Shown here: positions 47,460 to 63,278 of the stretch, piece by piece
How positions within the stretch are numbered: position 1 is the stretch's first letter
How the letters are laid out: each line of letters begins with the position of its first letter
Source: Planctomycetota bacterium
GTDB taxonomy: Bacteria; Planctomycetota; Uabimicrobiia; Uabimicrobiales; Uabimicrobiaceae
Direction: 5' to 3'
Assembly (NCBI GenBank): GCA_029260735.1
Contig: JAJDCR010000041.1
Span: 1-64,000 of the forward strand
Length of the DNA: 64,000 nucleotides
Made by a program: the position numbers and the translations under genes
Notes under the pieces: generated by a model
The model's database searches: none
What the model was told of the DNA's origin: nothing
Seen by the model: the letters and a program-made list of their open reading frames with translations, nothing else

Positions 47460-50400
47460 ATGTCCATGGCTAACGAAGAAAAACAGAGACGATATTTCCT
47501 CATCGCTTGTTTTTATCTATTTTTGTCCTTAGGATATTCCCAAGACAATGAGGATCTGGAGCAACTTAATGCTCAGGTTCTAAAAGCATACCAAGAAGGC
47601 AAGTATAAAGAGGGGATTGCTTTAGCAGAGAAAGCTTATCGTATGAGTACTTCTTCTTTAGGAGAAAAGCATCTATCTACGATAATATCAATGAACAGCT
47701 TGGCCGCATTGTATTGTGCGCAAGGAAAATACAGTAAATCCAAACCACTGTTTGTAAAGATTCTAAAGCTGACAAGAGAAGTCTTGGGCGAAAAACATCC
47801 ATTCACTCTAAAATCGATGAACAATCTGGCATCATTCTATTCTTCTCAAGGAGAATATAGCAAAGCTGAATCACTGCTTATAAAAACTTTTCTCCTAATG
47901 AAAGAAGCATTAGGAGAAAAGCATTCTTCTACCCTAACTTCCATGAACAACCTGGCAGAGTTATATAAATCACAAGGACAATACAATAAAGCCGAACCAC
48001 TGCTTGTAAAGACTTTACTCCTAATGAAAGAAGGGCTGGGAGAAAAGCATCCCGATACCCTAATTTCCATGAACAATCTAGCAGGATTATATGAGTCACA
48101 AGGACAATACAGTAAAGCCGAACCAATCTATATAAAAACTTTACACTTAAGAAGAGAAGTATTAGGAGAAAAGCATCCCTCTACCTTAACTTCCATGAAC
48201 AATCTGGCAGGATTATATGAGTCACAAGGACAATACAGTAAAGCCGAACCAATCTATGTAAAAACTTTACTCCTAATGAAAGAGGTATTAGGAGAAAAGC
48301 ATCCCTCTACCTTAACTTCCATGAACAATCTGGCACAGTTGTATTCTTCTCAGGGAGAATACACCAAAGCTGAGCCTATCTATGTAAGAACTTTGTTACT
48401 AACAAAAGAAGCATTGGGAGAAAAACATCCCTCTACCCTAACTTCAATGACCAATCTGGCACAGTTGTATTTTTCTCAGGGAGAATACACTAAAGCTGAG
48501 CCTATCGGTGTAAGAACTCTGCTACTAATGACAAAAATATTGGGGGAAAAACATCCCCATACTCTGGTTTCGATGAACAGTCTAGCCCAATTATATAGAT
48601 TACAAGGAAAATACAGTAAAGCTGAGGCAATCTATATAAAGACTTTGCAGCTAAGAGTAGAAGTATTGGGCGAAAAACATCCCCATACTCTAATTTCCAT
48701 GAGTAATCTGGCTGGAGTATATGAGTCACAGGGAGAATATACGAAAGCAGAGCCTTTGTTTCAAAAGGTTTTGTTACTAACAAAAGAAATATTGGGGGAA
48801 AAACATCCCTCCACTCTAGTTTCCATGAACAACTTGGCACAAATGTACAGATCACAAGGAGAATACAGTAGAACCGAGCCCTTGCTTATAAAGGCTCTAT
48901 CCCTAATGAAAGAAGTATTGGGCGAAAAACATCCCCATACCCTAAATTCCATGAGCAATCTAGCACAATTGTATTTTTCACAGGGAGAATACACGAAAGC
49001 TAAACCAATAATGGTAAAGGCTTTGAGGCTAAAAAGAGAAGTTTTAGGAGAAAAACATCCCGATACTCTAACTTCAATGAACAATCTCGTCGGACTGCAT
49101 GATTCGCAAAAAGAATATACAAAAGCCGAACCACTGCTTGTAAAGATTTTGCTGCTAACAAGAGAAAAATTGGGCGAAAAACATCCCGATACTCTAAGAG
49201 CTATGAACAACTTGGCGGCATTGTATCAATCACAAGGAAAATATACGAAAGCCAAACTACTGTTTGCAAAGACTTTTCTTCAGATAAAAGAAGTTTTAGG
49301 AGAAAAACATCCCGATACTCTAAGAACTATGAACAATCTGGCCCAATTGTATTCTTTTCATGGAGAATACACTAAAGCCGAACCACTGCTTGTAAAGACC
49401 TTGCTACTAACAAAAGAACTGCTCGGAGAAAAACACCCCGACACTCTAAATTCAATGAACAACCTAGCAGCATTATATAGGTCTTTGGGAAAGTACAATA
49501 GTGCATTATCTATTTTAAAAGAGCATTTAGAAAAAAAATGTCTATTTCTAAAGGGAGAGCTGCGAGGAAACTCGGAAAAAACTAGATTGAGAATGTTAGA
49601 GCAGTTTAATCTTGCCTATGATAAGAATAGTTTATTTTCCATTTTAAAGGAATATAGAAAAGAAGATTTTGATAGCTTAGCCCTTTATTTTTCAGCGAAT
49701 TACAAAGGGATACTTTTGCAAATTTCTCGAGAGTTAAAGCAAATATTCACCGACATTGCGGACCAGGAGTTACTAAAAGAGTTATCAGAGAAGAGATCGG
49801 CTTACTCTAGTTTGTCTTTGGATTATGAAAAACGAAAAAAGAACAGATTTTTAGTTGAGAAATTGGAAAAAGAAATAGATGAGCTAGAAAAGAAACTAAT
49901 TTGGAAAAGCAGTGATTTCAAGGACTTAGTCTCAGATGTAAAAACGGAAGAGATTAAAAAAGCTCTTTTGAAAGATGAGTTAATTATAGACTTTGTCATT
50001 TATAAGTCCGTTATCATACAAAAAAATGAGTTAGTGGCAATTATCGTAAGTCAAAGTGGTATAAAACTAGTTAACCTCGGAGAGTTTGAAGATATTTTAA
50101 ATTTGATAAAAAACTACCGAAGTAAACTTCAAAAGAAAGAAGAAGCAAAAGAATTGTCCCAGAAAATCTATGAAAGAATATTTTCTCCTCTAGGAAAATC
50201 CCTGCAAGGAAAAAATAAAGTATACATAGTACCCGATGGAATTTTGCACCTACTACCGTTCAGATCTTTAATCGAAAAAGATGGGGAATATCTAGCCAAG
50301 AACAAAAACGTAGTGATACTTTCTTCGAGCAGAGATCTGGTAAGAAAGAGCATGAAGAAAAGCAATAAATTAGCAATGATTTTTGCTTTTCCGAATTATG

Positions 50401-51281
50401 GAAGGGGAGAAGGTAAGCAAATCATAGAGGATAGAACAATTCAATTTTCCTCCTTAGGAGGAACCTTAGGGGAAGCTCAGGCCATCTCCTCTATCCTAAA
50501 TATCCCCACCAAAGTTTATACACAAGATCAAGCAAGCGAAAAAAACATTTCAAAAGTCGATTCTCCCCAAATTTTACACATCGCCACTCATGGGTATTTT
50601 CTAGATGCACCAGAAGAAATTCGAGAAGATCAAGCAAGTTTTTCAATGAAGAAAGTTATGTCAAATAAAGATTTCTTCGAGAAAAAACTAAGCAACCCCC
50701 TAGTTTACTCAGGGTTGGCCTTTGCAGGAGCGAATAATCAGGGAGAAGATGGAATATTAACAGCTCTGGAAGTATTAGGGTTAGATCTTTCCGGCACGGA
50801 TTTAGTAGTTCTCTCCGCCTGTGAAACAGGTGTAGGAGAAATTCGCCAAGGAGAAGGGGTCTATAGCCTACAAAGAGCTTTTCGAGAAGCAGGCGCTAAG
50901 TCCGTTCTGGCAACCTTGTGGAAAGTAGATGACAGGGCAACTCAGCTCTTCATGAAGAAGTTCTATCAACGATACATGAGAGGAATGTCGGCTCAGAAAG
51001 CGGTAAGAGATACCCAACTAGAGTTTTTAATGAGCAAAAGATACTCTCACCCTTTCTATTGGTCTTCCTTTGTCGTAATTGGTGGCCCATCAGATGATAT
51101 GGACCAAAAAAATGTAGTTGTTGCCAAAAAGCAAAAAAATGGCTTCCTTATTCCCTTCGTTTTACTTAGCATAGCAATTGTGCTAACCGTTTTTTTGGTA
51201 TTAGCGTACAGAAAAAAAGAGAAAAGACTTCTGCAAGAAAGAATCGCTAGGCGAAAAAAACGTAGGGAAAGAAAAGAGTAG
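47460..51281 (+). CDS. Membrane-anchored TPR-CHAT protein (caspase-like protease)
   Basis: 1273 residues. An N-terminal hydrophobic segment (FLIACFYLFLSLGYS) is followed by about 15 kinesin-light-chain-type TPR units of 42 residues, each with LGEKHP and SMNNLA. A linker of about 230 residues leads to a CHAT domain with both catalytic residues: His1044 in HIATHGYFL and Cys1121 in VLSACETGVG. A C-terminal membrane helix (FVLLSIAIVLTVFLVLAY) and a basic tail close the chain. CHAT proteases such as TPR-CHAT of type III-E CRISPR cut target proteins when the TPR part senses a partner; no such partner gene is adjacent, so the target is unknown. Confidence 0.92.
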   Translation: MSMANEEKQRRYFLIACFYLFLSLGYSQDNEDLEQLNAQVLKAYQEGKYKEGIALAEKAYRMSTSSLGEKHLSTIISMNSLAALYCAQGKYSKSKPLFVKILKLTREVLGEKHPFTLKSMNNLASFYSSQGEYSKAESLLIKTFLLMKEALGEKHSSTLTSMNNLAELYKSQGQYNKAEPLLVKTLLLMKEGLGEKHPDTLISMNNLAGLYESQGQYSKAEPIYIKTLHLRREVLGEKHPSTLTSMNNLAGLYESQGQYSKAEPIYVKTLLLMKEVLGEKHPSTLTSMNNLAQLYSSQGEYTKAEPIYVRTLLLTKEALGEKHPSTLTSMTNLAQLYFSQGEYTKAEPIGVRTLLLMTKILGEKHPHTLVSMNSLAQLYRLQGKYSKAEAIYIKTLQLRVEVLGEKHPHTLISMSNLAGVYESQGEYTKAEPLFQKVLLLTKEILGEKHPSTLVSMNNLAQMYRSQGEYSRTEPLLIKALSLMKEVLGEKHPHTLNSMSNLAQLYFSQGEYTKAKPIMVKALRLKREVLGEKHPDTLTSMNNLVGLHDSQKEYTKAEPLLVKILLLTREKLGEKHPDTLRAMNNLAALYQSQGKYTKAKLLFAKTFLQIKEVLGEKHPDTLRTMNNLAQLYSFHGEYTKAEPLLVKTLLLTKELLGEKHPDTLNSMNNLAALYRSLGKYNSALSILKEHLEKKCLFLKGELRGNSEKTRLRMLEQFNLAYDKNSLFSILKEYRKEDFDSLALYFSANYKGILLQISRELKQIFTDIADQELLKELSEKRSAYSSLSLDYEKRKKNRFLVEKLEKEIDELEKKLIWKSSDFKDLVSDVKTEEIKKALLKDELIIDFVIYKSVIIQKNELVAIIVSQSGIKLVNLGEFEDILNLIKNYRSKLQKKEEAKELSQKIYERIFSPLGKSLQGKNKVYIVPDGILHLLPFRSLIEKDGEYLAKNKNVVILSSSRDLVRKSMKKSNKLAMIFAFPNYGRGEGKQIIEDRTIQFSSLGGTLGEAQAISSILNIPTKVYTQDQASEKNISKVDSPQILHIATHGYFLDAPEEIREDQASFSMKKVMSNKDFFEKKLSNPLVYSGLAFAGANNQGEDGILTALEVLGLDLSGTDLVVLSACETGVGEIRQGEGVYSLQRAFREAGAKSVLATLWKVDDRATQLFMKKFYQRYMRGMSAQKAVRDTQLEFLMSKRYSHPFYWSSFVVIGGPSDDMDQKNVVVAKKQKNGFLIPFVLLSIAIVLTVFLVLAYRKKEKRLLQERIARRKKRRERKE
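47640..49500. repeat. 126-base tandem repeats inside the TPR-CHAT gene
   Basis: About 15 units of 126 bases; neighbours such as those starting near 48040 and 48165 are nearly identical over long runs. Such repeats can gain or lose units by recombination and would alter sensor length in whole 42-residue steps. Confidence 0.85.
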
Positions 51282-52377: not shown

Positions 52378-53478
52378 TTAGACAGAACTACTGGAGTTGC
52401 TATTTTCAACATCATCAGGAGAAATATAAGAAGAAATTGTGCTTTTAATCACTCCAGCTTGAGTGTACATCTCACTAAGGTTTTCAATCTTCACTTTTTC
52501 TTCTTTTTTGTCTCTAAAAATCCCTATATAACTATTGGAAGTTTTGAAATGAAGTCGGCATATTGTTTTACGATTGCTATCATCAAGTAGTATAGCACAA
52601 TATCTTTTTCCATTTCGAAGGAACACTCTTTCTGGAGAAATTACTTCTGCAGAAATAGCTTTAATAATGTTGAGTCCTTGTGTTTCTTCTTCACTTACAA
52701 CTAAATCAATATCTGCATCAGAAGAATCATCTAACTCAAGTTCCTTTTCTATTTCTTCTTCTTTTTCAGACTCTAAAGCAGATTTCAGTCTAGCGTTTAT
52801 TTTCTCCCGAATAAATTGAGCTAAAGCTTGTTTTACTATGCCAGAAAATTGATCTTTCACCGATTGAGTCATACGACCTGAGTAAACTTTTGAAACAAAA
52901 AATTTGATAAAGTCTTCTGAAGGGTCTACCATTTCGTTATCAAGAACTCTTTTTATTGAATTAGTGTATTTTAGTTCACTTGCAGCGGGAAGAATATTTT
53001 CAAGATCAAAAATATCTTTTGTAAATTTTTTTAATTCTTCAAGCTGTTGTTCCTCAAAACTAAGCATGTTAAATTCAAAAAAAGGTTTTGAATCCATTTT
53101 ATTTGGCTCTTCGATATCAGAAAAAAACTTATACAAAATACCATTTGTTAAGATACCAAACCTTGCCTCTGTTACTGAAAAATAGCGATACAATTGAGAA
53201 GTATGTCCTTCCTCTAGCTTTTGCTTGCACCACTTGCACTCCATTAACATAACAATTTTGCCATCTTTTTTTATCGCGTAGTCTACTTTTTCTCCTTTTT
53301 TTGCACCAACATCAGCAGTAAACTCAGGAGTAACTTCTGATGGATTAAAAACATCATAGCCTAAGGCATTTATCAACGGCATGATGAATGCATTTTTTGT
53401 TGCCTCTTCTGTTTCAATCTGGTCGATTAATTTTGGTATTCTCCCTGAAATTTCTTTTATTCTATCAATCAAATCCAT
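52378..53478 (-). CDS. Solitary protein with an HSDR_N (type I restriction N-terminal-like) nuclease domain
   Basis: 366 residues. FIMPLINALGYDVFNPSEV and the PD-(D/E)XK-like residues GEKVDYAIKKDGKIVMLMECKW (cut to VDYAI and MECKW) match HSDR_N domains found in type I restriction R subunits and in many solitary proteins. It lacks the helicase part and has no S or M gene near it. A C-terminal region with an acidic linker and a beta-rich end (RVFLRNGKRYCAILLDD) may be a separate binding domain. It lies between the two duplicated antitoxin blocks, so a defensive role is possible but not shown. Confidence 0.75.
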   Translation of the reverse strand: MDLIDRIKEISGRIPKLIDQIETEEATKNAFIMPLINALGYDVFNPSEVTPEFTADVGAKKGEKVDYAIKKDGKIVMLMECKWCKQKLEEGHTSQLYRYFSVTEARFGILTNGILYKFFSDIEEPNKMDSKPFFEFNMLSFEEQQLEELKKFTKDIFDLENILPAASELKYTNSIKRVLDNEMVDPSEDFIKFFVSKVYSGRMTQSVKDQFSGIVKQALAQFIREKINARLKSALESEKEEEIEKELELDDSSDADIDLVVSEEETQGLNIIKAISAEVISPERVFLRNGKRYCAILLDDSNRKTICRLHFKTSNSYIGIFRDKKEEKVKIENLSEMYTQAGVIKSTISSYISPDDVENSNSSSSV

Positions 53479-55543: not shown

Positions 55544-55591
55544 TGGTAGTGGCGGAGGGACTTGAACCCCCGACTAATGGATTATGATTCC
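55544..55591 (-). tRNA. 3' fragment of a CAU-anticodon tRNA (Met or Ile2), probable attachment site
   Basis: Minus-strand sequence from the anticodon loop (ATCATAA, anticodon CAT at 55584-55586) through a full T-arm (GGGGG-TTCAAGT-CCCTC), the 3' acceptor strand CGCCACTA and encoded CCA. The D-arm and 5' acceptor half are absent; upstream sequence is unrelated. A 3' part from the anticodon loop to CCA is the usual att core of integrases that use tRNA genes. The intact tRNA and the integrase should lie outside the window, on the higher-coordinate side if this is the chromosomal end. Confidence 0.8.
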
Positions 55592-55769: not shown

Positions 55770-56021
55770 ATGAAAACAATTGAAATACCAGATTCTATCC
55801 TTCTCTCCCTAAAAATTCCTGAGGGAGAAGTAACAGAGCGCCTCCAGATAGAGCTAGCAATTCGTCTTTACCAAAAAGGAATTTTAGGTTTTGGTAAGGC
55901 AAGAGAGTTGGCTAAGCTAAAGAAATGGCAATTCCAGGAAATTCTGGCAAAGGAGGGGATTGCTCTTAACTATGATGTAGAGGAATTGGAAAGAGATTTG
56001 GACGTTATAAAGGATTTGTAG
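55770..56021 (+). CDS. UPF0175 protein, copy 2 (antitoxin-like)
   Basis: 83 residues, three differences from copy 1 (all near the C-terminus: ERDLDVIKDL against EKDLEAIKDL). AGAGGA precedes the ATG. The convergent neighbour is the DUF5615-DUF433 pair. UPF0175 genes more often pair with DUF3368 PIN toxins, none of which is here. Confidence 0.83.
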   Translation: MKTIEIPDSILLSLKIPEGEVTERLQIELAIRLYQKGILGFGKARELAKLKKWQFQEILAKEGIALNYDVEELERDLDVIKDL

Positions 56022-56056: not shown

Positions 56057-56410
56057 TTATTTCAAAGGTAAATACTGCACTTGCCCTTCCGATTCTCCAT
56101 CTTCACTACATTCTGCCAAGAGCAAGAGATCTTCTATCAGCTGCCCAGCGTGAATATGCCGATTTACTTCAAAAACTCCAGGCATAAACTTATTTGTAGA
56201 AACTCGCTCATAAGCATACTTCGTAATCGTTTTCACATCGTGGGTAAGAAGTACACGGTTTTCTTGAGCAGCCCACTCTAGAACAGCAGGATCATCTTCG
56301 CCAGATAACCCTACATCCTGAACTCTTAAAATATCAATGCTAGGATTACGACGAAGTAAACCTCTGACTATATTGTTGTTGAAATTTTCATCTGCAAGAA
56401 ACTTTATCAT
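56057..56410 (-). CDS. DUF5615 PIN-like protein (probable toxin)
   Basis: 117 residues: FLADENFNNNIVRGLL, DILRVQDVGLSGEDDPAVLEW and VLLTHDVKTI give the acidic residues of the Mut7-C/PIN-like fold (DEN, D, HD). Expected to be a metal-dependent RNase toxin held by the DUF433 protein encoded directly upstream with no gap. Confidence 0.85.
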   Translation of the reverse strand: MIKFLADENFNNNIVRGLLRRNPSIDILRVQDVGLSGEDDPAVLEWAAQENRVLLTHDVKTITKYAYERVSTNKFMPGVFEVNRHIHAGQLIEDLLLLAECSEDGESEGQVQYLPLK

Positions 56411-56746
56411 TTAGAAAACTTTTTCTCGCTTGCGCGCCATTAATCGTTCCCTGATTTTATCAGAAGGAAATCGTTTTTCGTTTTCTTTACGAATTTCTAA
56501 GGCTTCTTTTTCTCGCTCGCTCAAATAATGATCCACTTCTTGTTGATTACTCAGATAATATCCTATTACCAAGTAAACATCAGATAAATTTAAAGAAGTA
56601 AACTGCTGTACGATTTCTTCTGCTGTTTTACCCTCATTAAAGGCACATACGACTGTTCCCAAAGGAACTCTTGTGCCTCGGATTAAAACATCACCATCTT
56701 GGTTTGTTTCCAGAGGAGCTGGTCTTGGAGGCATGGTAAGTAGCAT
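56411..56746 (-). CDS. DUF433 protein, copy 2 (antitoxin)
   Basis: 111 residues, same core as copy 1 (GKTAEEIVQQFTSLNLSDVY). It is the first gene of the pair; its stop abuts the DUF5615 start, so the two should be made together and in sequence, antitoxin first. Confidence 0.85.
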   Translation of the reverse strand: MLLTMPPRPAPLETNQDGDVLIRGTRVPLGTVVCAFNEGKTAEEIVQQFTSLNLSDVYLVIGYYLSNQQEVDHYLSEREKEALEIRKENEKRFPSDKIRERLMARKREKVF

Positions 56747-56859: not shown

Positions 56860-57396
56860 TCATTGGACAGAGGATGCTCTAAAAACAAAAAATAGAAAGA
56901 GTATCGATAAAACAATCAAAATAATAGCTAAATACAAGTTTTCCCAAGAACTGTATACCGCTATACATGTTATCCCAGAAGCCATAGATCCGCAGCTAAG
57001 AAAAAATCCCAAAATAAGTCGAGAGCACCACTTGTCCAGTAGTTCTTCTGTCGTATACGAAATTGTTAAACCTCTAAATAAACTTTTTTTCATGAGAATT
57101 AGTTCAGCTCCCAGTAAACAGGTAACAAAACCAATAGCAGCTGTTAGCCAAGAAGCATTAGATACTAGATAAAAATAATATATATCTGATGAATTTTCTG
57201 ATTTAGATCCCGATAACTCAATTAAGCCAGCAGAACAAAACCCCAATAAAATAGATGATATAGTCCGATAACTTTGGAGAAAATCTTTAAAAACTTCTGA
57301 TGGAGAACGATAACTGCATCTTGGACAGTAAGTACTATTCTTATGAAGCTCTTTCTGACAACATGGACATTTTTGTATTTTAACTGTTACATTCAT
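56860..57396 (-). CDS. Membrane protein with N-terminal zinc ribbon
   Basis: 178 residues. Four cysteines in KCPCCQKEL and YCPRCSYRS form a zinc ribbon at the start; four membrane segments follow (about 46-62, 80-105, 125-145, 152-172). No family recognised. Its start shares one base with the stop of the AAA ATPase gene (TAATG), so translation is coupled. Zinc-ribbon membrane proteins often act as small scaffolds or sensors; here it would be the membrane part of the four-gene set. Confidence 0.65.
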   Translation of the reverse strand: MNVTVKIQKCPCCQKELHKNSTYCPRCSYRSPSEVFKDFLQSYRTISSILLGFCSAGLIELSGSKSENSSDIYYFYLVSNASWLTAAIGFVTCLLGAELILMKKSLFRGLTISYTTEELLDKWCSRLILGFFLSCGSMASGITCIAVYSSWENLYLAIILIVLSILFLFFVFRASSVQ

Positions 57397-58994
57397 TAAC
57401 TTGATTCTTTTAAAAATTCTTCAATACGTTTTTTATAAAAATTAATAAGCTTTAAACAAAAATCATCGCTGACTTTCTCCCCCCTCTCTAGTTTTGAAAT
57501 TTGCGAAGGATGACATTTGAGTTTTTTTCCAATATATTTTTGTTGAAAACCTTTTTTTATTCGGAAATTTTTTATTTTGTCTCTGTTAATATACAAGTAT
57601 AGAGGGGACGGTACACTAAAAAGGGAATTGCCCCGCTTTGGTATTTCTCTCTCAGTATTATCATCTTTTTCTAAATCTTTCTCATCGAGATTCTCCTCTA
57701 AAAGTTCACTTTTTCCATTTCTGATATGCCTTAGTTGACTCTCATATTTTTGTCTTACCTTGCGGAGAAATATATATACTGCATTACTATTTTCCCAAAC
57801 TTCTTTTATTTGTTGTTCTAGGAGGGGATAATAAGGGTTTTCTTGAGGCGGAGAAATCTTAATTTTTTTCCATAGATAAACGTTTAAACGCTCTTTTACT
57901 AGTTTTTGAGCATCCCTTAAGGAAAAATCATCAATACTACAGATCCCTCCCTCAGACATTCTTCGAAAAAGATGAGCATCTATTGTCTCTGAAATTTTTA
58001 TCCATACTACCTCTTGTACACAGAAAAGAAAGCAAATATTGGGTAAGCGGTCTAATTCTCTTAAAACTGATGTTATTCTTAAAATAGCTTCATTAGCATT
58101 TGCTTCATCGTATCCTTGTGTTGAATGGTAAATATCTTCTAATTCGTCAAATACAAAAGCAATGCTACACCCTACAATATTACTTAGAGTCCAAACCCAG
58201 TCTTTAATTCTCAGTATCCAACTTGAGTTTCTTATCCCCATGAGTTCCAGCGTCTCTTGAGGTAGGGGCTTTCCATCAAGCCACTCTTCTATATAGCCTT
58301 GACAAGATTCTTCTAACAAAAAAAAGCAAATCGCTCGGAAAGTATCGTAATCATATCGCCCTTTTCCTTCGTTAGGGAACTCTTCATGATGAACAGTTTT
58401 TGCTGCTAGTCTTTCCAATGCCTTCTTGCAAAACACTTGGCTTTTTAGTGCATTTTTTAGCTCCTTCAGTTGTACTTTGGAGCTCTTATTAGATATGATG
58501 GGGAATGTATCACTGACTATTTGCCAGAGGGTTCTTTTCGCTGATAATTCTTTTCTACCTTCTTTTGTTCTTATAAATTCATCATAGGTTTGTAGTAAGA
58601 CTTCTTTTACTCGGTCCGTAGTCCTTTTTATTAAACGATTGCTGTGACGAAATATCGAATCAAAAATGCTTGAGGCTAGATGCTGGCGAAAGCAACCATA
58701 TTCGACTCTGTAAGGTGGTACATATACAAAAGCAATATTAGGAAAAGATTTCTCTATTTGATTTTGAGTCCATGCAATTAAATGACTTTTTCCCATCCCA
58801 GGAGGAGCAGTAATAACTAAACTTTGTGGAGAATGAGCTTGATAGATTCCCTCTAGTAATTGTGAAATCTTTTTTTTGATTTCTCCATGTAAAGTATCCA
58901 CATCTACAATTGGTTGCCAAGGAAGCCGAACAACTTCGCTTGCAAACGGTTGAGAACCTATTTTTAAGATACTTTCAATATCTTGCTGATCCAT
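57396..58994 (-). CDS. AAA ATPase with C-terminal XRE helix-turn-helix
   Basis: 532 residues from the ATG at 58994 (GGAG 6 bases ahead; a TTG five codons earlier is less likely). Walker A is APPGMGKSHLIAW (about residue 65 on) and Walker B is IAFVFDELEDIYH (about 280-292), followed by a sensor-like FLFCVQEVVW. After a charged linker (about 430-455) the chain ends in an XRE domain: IKNFRIKKGFQQKYIGKKL and CHPSQISKLERG. It may load onto or remodel DNA or a protein complex. The start overlaps the upstream coiled-coil gene by 20 bases. I do not match it to BrxC, DndH or another named defence ATPase with confidence. Confidence 0.78.
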   Translation of the reverse strand: MDQQDIESILKIGSQPFASEVVRLPWQPIVDVDTLHGEIKKKISQLLEGIYQAHSPQSLVITAPPGMGKSHLIAWTQNQIEKSFPNIAFVYVPPYRVEYGCFRQHLASSIFDSIFRHSNRLIKRTTDRVKEVLLQTYDEFIRTKEGRKELSAKRTLWQIVSDTFPIISNKSSKVQLKELKNALKSQVFCKKALERLAAKTVHHEEFPNEGKGRYDYDTFRAICFFLLEESCQGYIEEWLDGKPLPQETLELMGIRNSSWILRIKDWVWTLSNIVGCSIAFVFDELEDIYHSTQGYDEANANEAILRITSVLRELDRLPNICFLFCVQEVVWIKISETIDAHLFRRMSEGGICSIDDFSLRDAQKLVKERLNVYLWKKIKISPPQENPYYPLLEQQIKEVWENSNAVYIFLRKVRQKYESQLRHIRNGKSELLEENLDEKDLEKDDNTEREIPKRGNSLFSVPSPLYLYINRDKIKNFRIKKGFQQKYIGKKLKCHPSQISKLERGEKVSDDFCLKLINFYKKRIEEFLKESS

Positions 58995-60222
58995 ACTCTT
59001 CTCCCACAAATCCTTTTACTCTAACATAAAATAAAATCCCATACTCTGATTTAATTCCTTCTTTTGACCGGGGCTCTAAACGTGGACTATTGCAAACACG
59101 TAAGCTAAGTTTTTGTTCTTTTTTCCATTTTATCAACATCTTATGAAAGTCTTTTAAACTTAGATTTTTACTCTCTTTGATAAGCTCATCAAAAAGATTG
59201 GGAATCGGCATACTACCAGCATAAGCAGGATTCTTTTTGCAGTAACTTTGGTAGCTTTTTTTTAATAGTTCGAAGAGACTATTTTCATCGAAATGATTAG
59301 CATTTCTCTGTTCTTGGACATTTTCTGTTTTTAGTTTTTTTTGCAAACTCTGTATGTCTGCGAGTATTTCATTTTGTTTACTTAGGGAAGTTTCCTTGCA
59401 ATTAGAAAGGTTCTCTTCTAAAGCTTGACAGCTTTGGGTAAATTCTTGTTTTGTTTCTTCAATTTTTTCTGCGGTTCTTTGGTAGTATTCTTCTGCTTGT
59501 TCAATTGCTTTTAAGTTTGCTTCCTGAACTTCTTTTTGTAAAGTTTCACTAATCATAGAAAACAAAGCTGTAGACCTTATCTCTTTCATAGTATCGACAA
59601 AAGTCTCTTTAAACTTTTGCACTTGCTTCTCAAGGTGACTAGCAACCTCTGTGTTAAGTTTTGTTATTTCGGCAGATTGAGGTAAGTTGTCAGTTGCCAT
59701 TTTTTTTAGGCTATTGAGCTGAGTAAAAAAAGTTTTTTGCTGCTTTTCTATCGAATCAAACTCTTCTTCAAGTTTTTCTTGCTTTATTACTGCTTGTTTA
59801 TCTATAGGTAAGCGTTCGAATAAAAATTTTTCTCCTTTAGGCTCTAAAAGAAAAGTGTTAGTTGTCTTTTTCTTTATTAGCTTTGTTTCTTCTGCTTCTT
59901 TTCGCCATATAGGTAAAATGTTTCGACTCTCTGTTGCATTTAGCTTTTTCCCTTCTTTCTTTTTTAATATTTGAAAGAAGTCTTCCCAAACTTGTTCTTT
60001 GATTTTTTCATATCGAGAGTGTCCGACCTCTTTTTTCCAAAACTCTAATCCTTTAGATGTCACATCATATTTATTTTTAGCCGATTCTTTTAGCAACTGT
60101 TTTTGACAAAGTTCATTAAATAAAAGCTGTGCTTTTTTCGCACTCAGTCCTATTGCTTTCTTTGTAAGAGAAGTTCCTCCTAAAATTATGGCTTTTTCTA
60201 GAGGCTCCAAGATTTCTTGCAT
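58975..60222 (-). CDS. Coiled-coil protein with winged-helix ends
   Basis: 415 residues. The first 75 look like a winged helix (KAIGLSAKKAQLLFNELCQK, LEFWKKEVG) and a second such unit may follow to about 140. Residues 145-305 are a long coiled coil rich in Glu, Lys and Gln. The C-terminal 100 residues form another compact domain (SLKDFHKMLIKWKKEQKLSL, SPRLEPRSKEGIKSEYGILF). No family recognised. The overlap with the AAA gene suggests a stoichiometric partner, perhaps an adaptor that links the ATPase to DNA or to the membrane components. Confidence 0.65.
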   Translation of the reverse strand: MQEILEPLEKAIILGGTSLTKKAIGLSAKKAQLLFNELCQKQLLKESAKNKYDVTSKGLEFWKKEVGHSRYEKIKEQVWEDFFQILKKKEGKKLNATESRNILPIWRKEAEETKLIKKKTTNTFLLEPKGEKFLFERLPIDKQAVIKQEKLEEEFDSIEKQQKTFFTQLNSLKKMATDNLPQSAEITKLNTEVASHLEKQVQKFKETFVDTMKEIRSTALFSMISETLQKEVQEANLKAIEQAEEYYQRTAEKIEETKQEFTQSCQALEENLSNCKETSLSKQNEILADIQSLQKKLKTENVQEQRNANHFDENSLFELLKKSYQSYCKKNPAYAGSMPIPNLFDELIKESKNLSLKDFHKMLIKWKKEQKLSLRVCNSPRLEPRSKEGIKSEYGILFYVRVKGFVGEEYGSARY

Positions 60223-60288
60223 TGTAAATTCCCTTGCAAAAATTAGGTTTTAAGTATTCTTATTGTTGTATACTTTTCTTTTGTTGGA

Positions 60289-61902
60289 CTAAAATCTTTG
60301 AACAGATATTTTAAGTACCAGAATGCCTGTATCTATATTTCCTGGAGAAAAGCACAAAATGTTTTGAACTCCCTCTTTCTTGAGTAAGTCCCCTAGCTCT
60401 ATTTGATAGGAACCAACATTGTCATTATTACTAAGGTCGGAATCATAGATTGATATATCAACGATTCGATTATCTAGTTTACTGACATTATAGGCATCTA
60501 TAGCGAGATTCCAGTTAGGTAAATAATCGTCTTGGTCTTTGTAACCTTCTCCTCCAACTCTTTGCCCCTCTACAGAAATAATGGGATAGCAGTCTGGAGC
60601 AGCTGTCCCACGGTTTGCCATTGTTAGTATTTCGTTACTAATTTCCGCAACAATAGCATTAGCAGGACCTGACACCTTGGCTAAATATGCAATAAAAGCT
60701 CCTGCCCCTGATACTCTTCCTCCCGCCAGTCCGTCCCAAGGGGTTTGAGCAATGGGTTTAAAAGGTAAAATTACAGCACCATGCAAAGTAATTCGGTAAT
60801 TACTTTTCTGATTCAAAGCTTGCTGACACTCCGTTAGTCCTTGCTCGGCTAAAGTATAGTCTGACCATAGCCTGAGTGTTGCTTGGTAAAATTCGATTGC
60901 ACTTTCCCACTCCTGGTTTTCTTTGGCTTGATTAGCTTTCAAAAAGTATATGTTTGCTTTTTTTTGCTGGCCTAATATCTCTTCTTTTAATCTAGAGGCT
61001 TCTGTATTTTGCGGATTGAAAGATATTGCTTGATGAGCATACTCTTCTGCACTTGTTAATTTGCTTTCTTGCAAAGAGTCTTTTGTTTTTTTTACAAACC
61101 TTATAGATTTAACATAAGGCAGACAAATGTTTATTTTTTCTTTTACCTCAGGTGTTTCAATTCTGTTGGAAGCTTCTGTAAAAGCAAAAAAAGCTTTTTC
61201 CCAGTGCAATAGAGCTAATTCTTTTTCTCCCATTTCGAAATATTTTTCGTAGTCTAAATGACGATCAACAACCTTGCGTCCTTCAATAGCTACTGAGTTG
61301 TCACTCCATGTGCTCAGAACTTCATCATATTTACTTCCTGCTTTTTGCCACTTCTGATCAACTAGAAGGCTCTCTGCCTCTGAAAGAGTTTCTGTAACTG
61401 ACTCTTGTTTTTGCTTTACCTCTGATAATTTATTTTGGGCTAGTTCGTTATCAGGTATATAGTTGAGGGCTTGCAGTAGAGAAGTGTAGGCTTCTGTTAG
61501 TCTACTTTGATTAAGAAGATTGATTCCCTTTTGAGTTAACAATTGCGACTTTTGTTTCGTTCTTCCTTTTTTAGCCTTATCTAGCTCTAGTCTTGTTTTT
61601 TCATCTGGGCGAAGCTGTAAGGAAAGAGAAAAAAACTCAATTGCTTCACTATAGTTATCCATTGCTGCTGATCGATATCCATGAGAGTAATAGTAATCAG
61701 CACCTTGCTCTTTAGCTAAGCTTAGTTTTTTTGCTACGATCACATTTTCTGGATCTTCTGTAGATGCTAATTGATACATTTTTACAGCTTTTATCCAGTT
61801 ATTTTTTGCAGCTAATTTATCAGCTTTCTTCTCGTAAGAAGAGCATCCCACTAACATCACACAGATAAAGCACACTACCCATTGAGTATATTTTTGATTC
61901 AT
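60289..61902 (-). CDS. TPR lipoprotein with C-terminal C2-like domain
   Basis: 537 residues from the ATG at 61902 (AAAGG ahead). A lipobox (MLVGC) marks a lipoprotein. About 350 residues of TPR-like repeats follow (WIKAVKMYQLASTEDPENV, YSEAIEFFSLSLQLRPDEK, WESAIEFYQATLRLW). The last 160 residues are beta-rich; ITLHGAVILPFKP and NWNLAIDAYNVS then VDISIYDSDLSNNDNVG resemble a C2 domain. First gene of the leftward set, 66 bases before the coiled-coil gene. Expected to face the periplasm while its partners are cytosolic, with the zinc-ribbon membrane protein able to join both sides. Confidence 0.75.
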   Translation of the reverse strand: MNQKYTQWVVCFICVMLVGCSSYEKKADKLAAKNNWIKAVKMYQLASTEDPENVIVAKKLSLAKEQGADYYYSHGYRSAAMDNYSEAIEFFSLSLQLRPDEKTRLELDKAKKGRTKQKSQLLTQKGINLLNQSRLTEAYTSLLQALNYIPDNELAQNKLSEVKQKQESVTETLSEAESLLVDQKWQKAGSKYDEVLSTWSDNSVAIEGRKVVDRHLDYEKYFEMGEKELALLHWEKAFFAFTEASNRIETPEVKEKINICLPYVKSIRFVKKTKDSLQESKLTSAEEYAHQAISFNPQNTEASRLKEEILGQQKKANIYFLKANQAKENQEWESAIEFYQATLRLWSDYTLAEQGLTECQQALNQKSNYRITLHGAVILPFKPIAQTPWDGLAGGRVSGAGAFIAYLAKVSGPANAIVAEISNEILTMANRGTAAPDCYPIISVEGQRVGGEGYKDQDDYLPNWNLAIDAYNVSKLDNRIVDISIYDSDLSNNDNVGSYQIELGDLLKKEGVQNILCFSPGNIDTGILVLKISVQRF

Positions 61903-61977: not shown

Positions 61978-62946
61978 TTAGATCAATTGTCCAGAATCTT
62001 TTGTAGGTTCTAAGATTGAAAATATGCTTTTGGTAATATTATCATAAGTCGGCATTAGGTGTGCTTTTGATATGCGCTTTTTCCAAAGAAGCTCTCTCAA
62101 GTTATTGATTTCTTTAGTTGGTAAAGTTATTTTGCGTAGAGGTTTGCTTGGTAAATTCACTTTTTTTAAGACTTCTGGACAATTGCGGTTTATACAGTTT
62201 TCTATTGTCTCTTCAAAACAAGGCCAGTAACCTTTATTGATGAAAACTGAGTGTGCTCGACTATCGTAAGAGAATAGACCATCTTGAGCGTGTAAAAAAT
62301 GATTATCTGATCGAGGACACGTAAGTTCTGTTAAAACATGATGATCTAAAACATCTCTGTGCATAGCCCATACTGCTATTTTTTTGGCATTTTTTTGTTG
62401 ATCTTCAAAGCTAGAAGCGAAAAAAGCAGCTATTTCGGGTTTTCGAGTCCAATCTAATAAACGCGTTGGAATTCCGTGATGTTGCGCTAAAGCAGAAATT
62501 GCTGGAGAAGGGACTAATAACTGAGCTGGGGTCTTGGTAAGAAACCTTTCTATAAAACAATATTTTTTACCATCATTTGGTACAAAGAAACCTAACTCGT
62601 CACTAAGACGAGAAAATTGACAGAGCAAGTATCCTTCACTGGCTTCTTGAAAAAGATAATTTGCAGCAAATTCTTTATTTATTGCTTTTTTTACTTCCCC
62701 ATTAGCATGTTGACTAGTGTCCATCATGCTTTGATAACGCTTTCTCAATTGCTTTTCAACTAATTCTATTGATTTATTATTACGCCAAGCACTGGGTATC
62801 AATTTCCAATCAGAATTCGTATGCCCTCGAAAAACCCAATTACAGTCGAGCCCATCAAACCATTTGTCATCTGTTCGAGTTAAGTATTCGAGAAATTTTT
62901 CCGCTTTTTTACAATCTCTAACTTCAATGCAACTAAATTCATCCAT
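61978..62946 (-). CDS. FRG domain-containing protein
   Basis: 322 residues from the ATG that shares its A with the XRE stop (TGATG). The FRG motif is NWVFRGHTNSDWKLIPSAWR, followed by ALAQHHGIPTRLLDWTRKPE and AAFFASS, the other two signature blocks of the family. Activity of FRG domains is not firmly known; they occur in mobile and defence-linked genes. Pairing with an XRE regulator fits a toxin-antitoxin or phage-response unit. Confidence 0.88.
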   Translation of the reverse strand: MDEFSCIEVRDCKKAEKFLEYLTRTDDKWFDGLDCNWVFRGHTNSDWKLIPSAWRNNKSIELVEKQLRKRYQSMMDTSQHANGEVKKAINKEFAANYLFQEASEGYLLCQFSRLSDELGFFVPNDGKKYCFIERFLTKTPAQLLVPSPAISALAQHHGIPTRLLDWTRKPEIAAFFASSFEDQQKNAKKIAVWAMHRDVLDHHVLTELTCPRSDNHFLHAQDGLFSYDSRAHSVFINKGYWPCFEETIENCINRNCPEVLKKVNLPSKPLRKITLPTKEINNLRELLWKKRISKAHLMPTYDNITKSIFSILEPTKDSGQLI

Positions 62947-63278
62947 CACCCTTTACCAACCAGCGAAGATACACTAGACAATTCCTTCTCAACCCGAGTC
63001 AAACGCTCCTCAATTCGCTCAATCCGCCGATCATCTCCCTGATCGTTGCTAACCCCTTGTCCAAAATCTTCACGCTTAACATACCCCGGAAACAAATCGC
63101 TGATAATATCCAGCATATCCGCTAGCTTAAACAAATCGTCTACAGAGGGACGCTTCCTATTGTTAATCCACTCCGAAATCGAAGATTGAGATTTGCCCAT
63201 AGTCTCGGCTAATTCTTGTTGGGTAATTTTTTTCTTTTTCAATCCTTGTCGGATGGCTTCGCCAATATTTATATTCAC
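62946..63278 (-). CDS. XRE-family regulator paired with the FRG gene
   Basis: 110 residues starting at GTG with a strong GGAGG 7 bases ahead. The helix-turn-helix is ITQQELAETMGKSQSSISEW (about residues 18-37) with RPSVDDLFKLADML after it; a C-terminal helix (IERIEERLTRVEKELSSV) could dimerise. It probably represses its own operon and perhaps the divergent primase gene through the TATCGCCA sites upstream. Confidence 0.88.
   Translation of the reverse strand: MNINIGEAIRQGLKKKKITQQELAETMGKSQSSISEWINNRKRPSVDDLFKLADMLDIISDLFPGYVKREDFGQGVSNDQGDDRRIERIEERLTRVEKELSSVSSLVGKG

Follow-up and report, generated by a model that had tools for sequence, protein, structure and literature searches.

A probable motorless, XRE-fused variant of Orc/CDC6 and multi-winged-helix anti-invader systems, carried by an island in a Planctomycetota tRNA-Met gene

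Four adjoining genes of a Planctomycetota bacterium raise the question whether they make up a defence module of their own or only enclose a smaller unit of a kind already described. They lie in a window of 64,000 nucleotides (positions 1 to 64,000 of contig JAJDCR010000041.1, GenBank assembly GCA_029260735.1) and encode a TPR lipoprotein, a coiled-coil protein with winged-helix ends, an AAA ATPase with a C-terminal XRE domain and a zinc-ribbon membrane protein. An earlier note, made from the letters alone, had proposed them as one module, which it did not recognise as a named defence system. Its account of the layout is accurate: in the ORF list of the window all four open reading frames (ORFs) are intact, on the minus strand and where the note had put them, and the spacing (a 66-base gap, a 20-base overlap and a 1-base overlap) is exact provided that the ATPase starts at ATG 58994, the other option being TTG 59009. 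The co-occurrence check did not sustain the module itself: only the middle pair is conserved. We think it probable that this pair, cargo of a mobile island, is a variant, fused to XRE and lacking a motor, of those Orc/CDC6 plus multi-winged-helix systems for which interception of invading DNA has been predicted.

The AAA protein is an Orc/Cdc6-clade ATPase, as profile matches and its AlphaFold2 (AF2) fold indicate. Pfam assigns AAA_16 at E 2e-5, under the cut-off, and HTH_3 at E 6e-9; the P-loop reads PPGMGKS and Walker B FVFDELED. The AF2 model, with a mean predicted local distance difference test score (pLDDT) of 64 and mostly 70-90 across the AAA core, matches TnsC, Orc1 and Cdc6 at Z of about 14.5 and BrxC at Z 12.7. 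Such an ATPase, here recognised by profile and fold, is a feature of the Orc/CDC6-type "HerA/FtsK capture" systems, which Rakesh, Aravind and Krishnan described computationally in 2024 and predicted, in the part of that paper available to us, to act against invaders (PMC10853773). The XRE domain (HTH_3) at the C-terminus was found in the window ATPase alone (1 of 44 members) and stands where a C-terminal winged helix-turn-helix (wHTH) domain sits elsewhere.

The gene directly upstream supplies a multi-wHTH partner, a component of a subset of the capture systems. At its N-terminus Pfam gives HTH_45 at E 1e-4, under the cut-off. Against a profile of the partner C-terminal region the window protein has E 0.001 in a set of 522 proteins, the next non-partner scoring 0.3; weak as the match is, it falls among the true partners and ahead of every non-partner. 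To guard against circularity, profiles were cross-trained on Planctomycetota and Proteobacteria partners: the one built from 17 Planctomycetota partners gives the window partner E 4e-5 among 180 proteins (first non-partner 0.055), and the one built from 12 Proteobacteria partners recovers Planctomycetota partners. An SMC/Jet or Zorya origin of the coiled coil was considered and rejected, the matches being coiled-coil-only (E 0.003 and 0.04).

With the single ATPase sequence at E 1e-4, relatives were found in 7 of 392 Planctomycetota genomes, its own included; a seven-row profile at E 1e-10 found them in 20 of the 392, a count that retains the seven genomes that supplied the rows. In the phylum of a gammaproteobacterial match the ATPase profile gave 19 of 398 genomes, one of which is the source of a profile row. 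A pattern scan of 84,980 species with A6 returned 11 loci, four of them already known from Planctomycetota, with relatives in Thiotrichales, other Gammaproteobacteria, Myxococcus, a Chthoniobacterales genome and a deltaproteobacterial bin; a genome-wide pattern scan with the window ATPase alone returned no relative. There was no match to the ATPase in the phage and plasmid collections and none to the partner in the plasmid collection. The viral contigs gave no ATPase relative by single protein, and none of the 115 pattern matches obtained there with alignment A5 was confirmed. A PDB sequence search gave nothing of use.

Neighbourhoods were examined at 47 loci, 43 of them with an ATPase ORF and a few cut by contig ends; L051, L110, L114 and L117 stand outside the 43 because no ATPase ORF was picked there, although L110 does carry a partner gene, and the duplicates L064, L065, L066 and L069 (identical to L009, L011, L010 and L013) were counted once. 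A partner gene with the shared C-terminal winged-helix region lies directly upstream on the same strand at 33 of the 43 loci, in several phyla; 29 of these partners are profile seeds, and those of L095, L056, L112 and L107 were found by the profile. The partner is a fast-evolving multi-winged-helix protein paired with an Orc/Cdc6 ATPase, and the two middle genes of the window are the conserved unit. At 26 of the 43 loci the ATPase either carries a fused DNA motor or has one encoded beside it (15 FtsK-type, 10 HerA-type and 1 RuvB-type), as judged by motor profiles built from some of the same loci, with which Pfam agrees on the loci scanned. A Cas4-like PD-(D/E)XK domain often opens the separate motor proteins, whose FtsK part is similar to SspH (E down to 4e-56). 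At one Planctomycetota locus (L048:5862-9816) a PD-(D/E)XK-RuvB-like fusion takes the place of FtsK or HerA after the ATPase. No motor was seen at 17 loci; L013, L055, L095 and L109 at least are cut off by a contig edge, beyond which a motor may lie. Ten of these 17 loci (L105, L106, L108, L109, L111, L113, L115, L116, L118 and L095), which all came from the Pseudomonadota search, group in a supported clade (99/100) with D-R or D-C in Walker B; contig ends hide the downstream side of L109 and L095 and the upstream side of L115. Among 468 neighbour proteins, those recurring in at least three related loci are the ATPase, the partner, the motor, a kinase-like cluster and two minor clusters. A similar protein occurs next to or near the pair in L012, L014, L041 and L056, and is kinase-like by sequence in L012 and L014. 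The relatives recovered in this analysis agree with the capture systems as the available part of PMC10853773 describes them.

Several observations weigh against placing the window pair with these relatives. The ATPase is about 20% identical to any of them and at most 22% in any alignment, and the tree could not place it (a long branch; L074 left out). No fused motor was found in it, no HerA/FtsK motor among its annotated neighbours and no active restriction endonuclease (REase) adjoining the pair, and a C-terminal wHTH is absent from it. About 90 residues separate the AAA core from the XRE domain, too few for the middle, inactive REase domain; a crude profile of that domain is without a match in the window ATPase, though it also misses 12 other members. 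Since motor, active nuclease, inactive-nuclease domain and C-terminal wHTH are all missing, the function may have shifted. The partner match is weak, and the Proteobacteria-trained profile does not list the window partner at E 1; taken with the ranks given above, its sequence marks it as a real yet remote member of the partner family. Its AF2 model is poor (pLDDT 56) and gave no Foldseek match at E 0.001, which also limits comparison with an SspB-like triple-wHTH fold. The literature yielded no experiment on any member of the class, and no close relative exists to reveal selection on the pair. Because two features of the capture systems are present and four are absent, we file the pair as a variant and not as a member.

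The four genes lie in an integrative element in a tRNA-Met gene, with the middle pair as its cargo. The element, about 17.4 kb long, is flanked by a 45-bp exact repeat whose right copy, at contig 72911-72955, covers the tRNA-Met 3' end from the anticodon arm on, within an intact tRNA-Met gene at contig 72911-72983; a tyrosine recombinase lies between the two copies, as expected of a tRNA-integrated element. The island also holds a Xis-like HTH protein, a KAP NTPase with an Abi_C protein and an IS200-like ORF, and the D5-like C-terminal part of its primase was recognised by eye and from a match to a phage primase family. The surroundings named in the earlier note, a toxin-antitoxin block, an integration scar, an XRE-FRG pair and a TOTE primase, were borne out (Table 1), the scar being the tRNA-Met repeat. 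The pair travels with other probable anti-virus genes on the island. P4-like satellites, which carry defence hotspots according to the part of the source available (PMC9122126), may serve as a fair analogy, with no kinship claimed.

Table 1. Features of the island within the window (positions count from the first letter of the window).
Feature	Position	Strand	Evidence
Left attachment repeat, 45-bp 3' fragment of tRNA-Met	55547..55591	.	exact repeat
UPF0175 gene, inside island	55770..56021	+	domain match
DUF5615-DUF433 pair, probable toxin-antitoxin, inside island	56057..56746	-	domain match
Zinc-ribbon membrane protein, candidate effector	56860..57396	-	ORF; CxxC pairs, hydrophobic segments
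Orc/Cdc6-clade AAA+ ATPase with C-terminal XRE, core gene 2	57396..58994	-	profiles, AF2 fold, HTH_3
Multi-winged-helix/coiled-coil partner protein, core gene 1	58975..60222	-	HTH_45; partner profile
TPR lipoprotein, weak C2-like C-terminus	60289..61902 (listed ORF start 61920)	-	ORF; TPR_2, C2 matches
FRG-domain protein, predicted ART-fold NADase effector	61978..62949	-	FRG E 8e-19; PADLOC candidate PDC-S15 E 2e-26
XRE regulator, first gene of leftward six-gene run	62946..63278	-	HTH_3 E 7e-15
AEP-TOTE primase start, 883 aa, runs to contig 66109	63458..64000	+	AEP-TOTE E 4e-16

Several further features were seen on and around the island. The KAP NTPase and Abi_C genes occupy its other end (contig 67875-70819; L057:3876-6820). 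Copies of a short repeat whose core is GTCGTGCATTTTTCGTGCA lie at window 51415, 55420 and 55651 and at contig 72793, and the two tRNA repeats have flanks that are 81% alike across 172 bp, a stretch that includes a terminator-like hairpin. The closest genome (G001, locus L128) has a related primase and a Xis-like HTH protein in the vicinity of a SIR2-like protein and an HsdM-like gene (by eye), which may mark a different island with its own cargo. Window 47460-51281 encodes a 1273-aa TPR protein with a CHAT domain (E 9e-72). A stand-alone HSDR_N nuclease-type protein at window 52378-53478 lies 3.4 kb away and beyond the element delimited by the repeats; this position, behind a transposase, led to its rejection as the missing nuclease.

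As to the outer genes, the lipoprotein matches TPR_2 at E 3e-8 and C2 at E 4e-4, just below the Pfam cut-off, and the zinc-ribbon protein has weak library matches (E 0.06 or worse), two CxxC pairs visible by eye and hydrophobic segments at about 77-103 and 127-178. The domain calls of the earlier note were thus upheld for TPR, XRE and both winged-helix ends (the C-terminal one by the partner profile), with C2, AAA_16 and HTH_45 below cut-off and the zinc ribbon weak. PADLOC, NCBIfam and Pfam return only generic AAA, HTH, TPR and C2 or weak matches for the four proteins, and none of these libraries names a system for them. That the set is an unnamed defence system was half right: PADLOC does not cover it and a role against invader DNA is probable, but the middle pair belongs with the described Orc/CDC6 class. 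Across 21 genomes (its own and 20 relatives) the lipoprotein matches in four, namely itself and three weak partial matches, and the zinc-ribbon protein in one, itself; neither these two nor the FRG and XRE proteins have a match among the 468 neighbour proteins. With no counterpart of the lipoprotein and zinc-ribbon genes in related loci and their near-absence from the 21 genomes, the four genes are not a conserved module. The lipoprotein is probably cargo or a neighbour outside the conserved unit, and the zinc-ribbon gene, because its start overlaps the ATPase stop, may be a local effector. The leftward run begins before the lipoprotein: an XRE gene and then an FRG gene precede it on the same strand, the latter 57 bases ahead of the lipoprotein ORF, and a single transcript may therefore span as many as six genes. 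A terminator scan found seven terminator-like sites against 5.8 expected by chance, none of them on the minus strand between the four genes; at about chance level, the scan leaves the operon to be inferred.

We propose the following mechanism by analogy with the family. The winged-helix/coiled-coil partner would read DNA, and Orc/Cdc6-type AAA+ subunits would assemble on it with ATP, as Orc, TnsC and BrxC do, with the XRE domain giving a second DNA contact for sensing or autoregulation. In the motor-bearing relatives the ring would pass DNA to an FtsK/HerA pump and a Cas4-like nuclease. The window lacks that output, and with pump and nuclease gone a neighbouring effector is the probable output; the likeliest and best placed would be the membrane protein with the zinc ribbon, which may act together with the FRG protein and cause growth arrest. 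Homology, synteny, the loss of domains and the mobile element are demonstrated here; DNA sensing, ring assembly and defence are inferred from the family, and a membrane output through the zinc-ribbon protein is our guess. FRG is a domain of the ART superfamily for which a role as NADase effector has been suggested (PMC9503650, in the part available).

A bolder reading, which we regard as unlikely, makes the locus a new defence type, in which a pump-free Orc/Cdc6 ring with a multi-winged-helix reader senses invader DNA through the added XRE domain and fires the translationally coupled zinc-ribbon membrane effector; it would mean that an origin-recognition machine has been turned into an abortive-infection trigger. 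It is quite unlikely that the pair instead serves replication or maintenance of the island, binding its origin and loading or regulating the adjacent AEP-D5 primase-helicase. Orc/Cdc6 proteins are initiators by ancestry, as the fold recalls, the element holds a primase-helicase, an integrase and Xis, and the XRE domain could bind an origin or operator; however, transcription of the pair, in a run shared with FRG, points away from the primase, none of the neighbours that recur in at least three related loci is a replication protein, and the 19.5 kb retrieved from each of G001 and G018 shows a related primase but not the pair. An improbable third reading is that of a decayed or regulatory remnant, whose ATPase has lost its motor and is now only an XRE-type island regulator. 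The missing motor, nuclease and middle domain and the XRE match of this one member (1/44) agree with it, whereas the frames are open, Walker A is intact, Walker B is the canonical D-E, found in the window alone among 44 sequences (against D-Q in 33, D-R in 9 and D-C in 1), and motorless pairs elsewhere form a supported clade of 10 loci (99/100). That the four genes act as one envelope-to-DNA module is likewise improbable: they share a strand, short gaps and overlaps uninterrupted by terminator-like sites, but the lipoprotein and zinc-ribbon genes lack counterparts in related loci, with only weak partial matches in relatives, and the run extends upstream into FRG and XRE.

If the motorless-variant reading is true, the Orc/Cdc6 and winged-helix pair would be the transferable sensing core of many predicted defence systems, whose pump and nuclease would be interchangeable outputs, and a purely computational class of 2024 would become directly testable by a two- or three-gene construct. 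The motorless Pseudomonadota pairs would be versions nearer to laboratory hosts.

In the literature covered, which did not extend to preprints and supplements, no printed name was found for the system of the window, and only PMC10853773 and PMC12839542 were judged to treat it; the comparisons below draw on the parts of these two papers available. The motorless Pseudomonadota pairs are like the window in having two genes and no adjoining motor, but they keep the middle domain (10/10 by the crude profile, two of them its seeds), have D-R or D-C in Walker B and carry neither XRE nor a zinc-ribbon gene. SspB/SspC of Ssp phosphorothioation likewise combine an Orc/Cdc6 ATPase with a triple-wHTH partner as a pair without a motor (PMC10853773); in the window, however, no SspA/SspD homologue was seen beside the pair, its proteins have no PADLOC Ssp match, and no Ssp phosphorothioation gene was matched among the window and island proteins scanned. 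DndF/DndG/DndH share the ATPase, a multi-wHTH protein (DndG) and the HerA/FtsK logic of the wider family (PMC10853773), whereas the window is without a DndH-type motor and DndF and DndH have several further domains that were not seen in it. The capture systems resemble it in their Orc/CDC6 ATPase, their rapidly evolving multi-wHTH protein and their mobile neighbourhoods (PMC10853773); the window differs in being without HerA/FtsK, an active REase and room for the inactive REase domain, in XRE replacing the C-terminal wHTH and in its D-E Walker B. From BREX it differs in having no PglZ, methylase or BrxC-type C-terminal domains, and PADLOC found no BREX match (PglZ, or BrxX methylase near BrxC) in the seven window proteins scanned. 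BrxC/BrxA do share with it an Orc/Cdc6 AAA+ scaffold (the BrxC fold match at Z 12.7) and a multi-HTH DNA-binding partner, and PMC12839542 backs the wider logic of such scaffolds with multi-wHTH readers in BREX.

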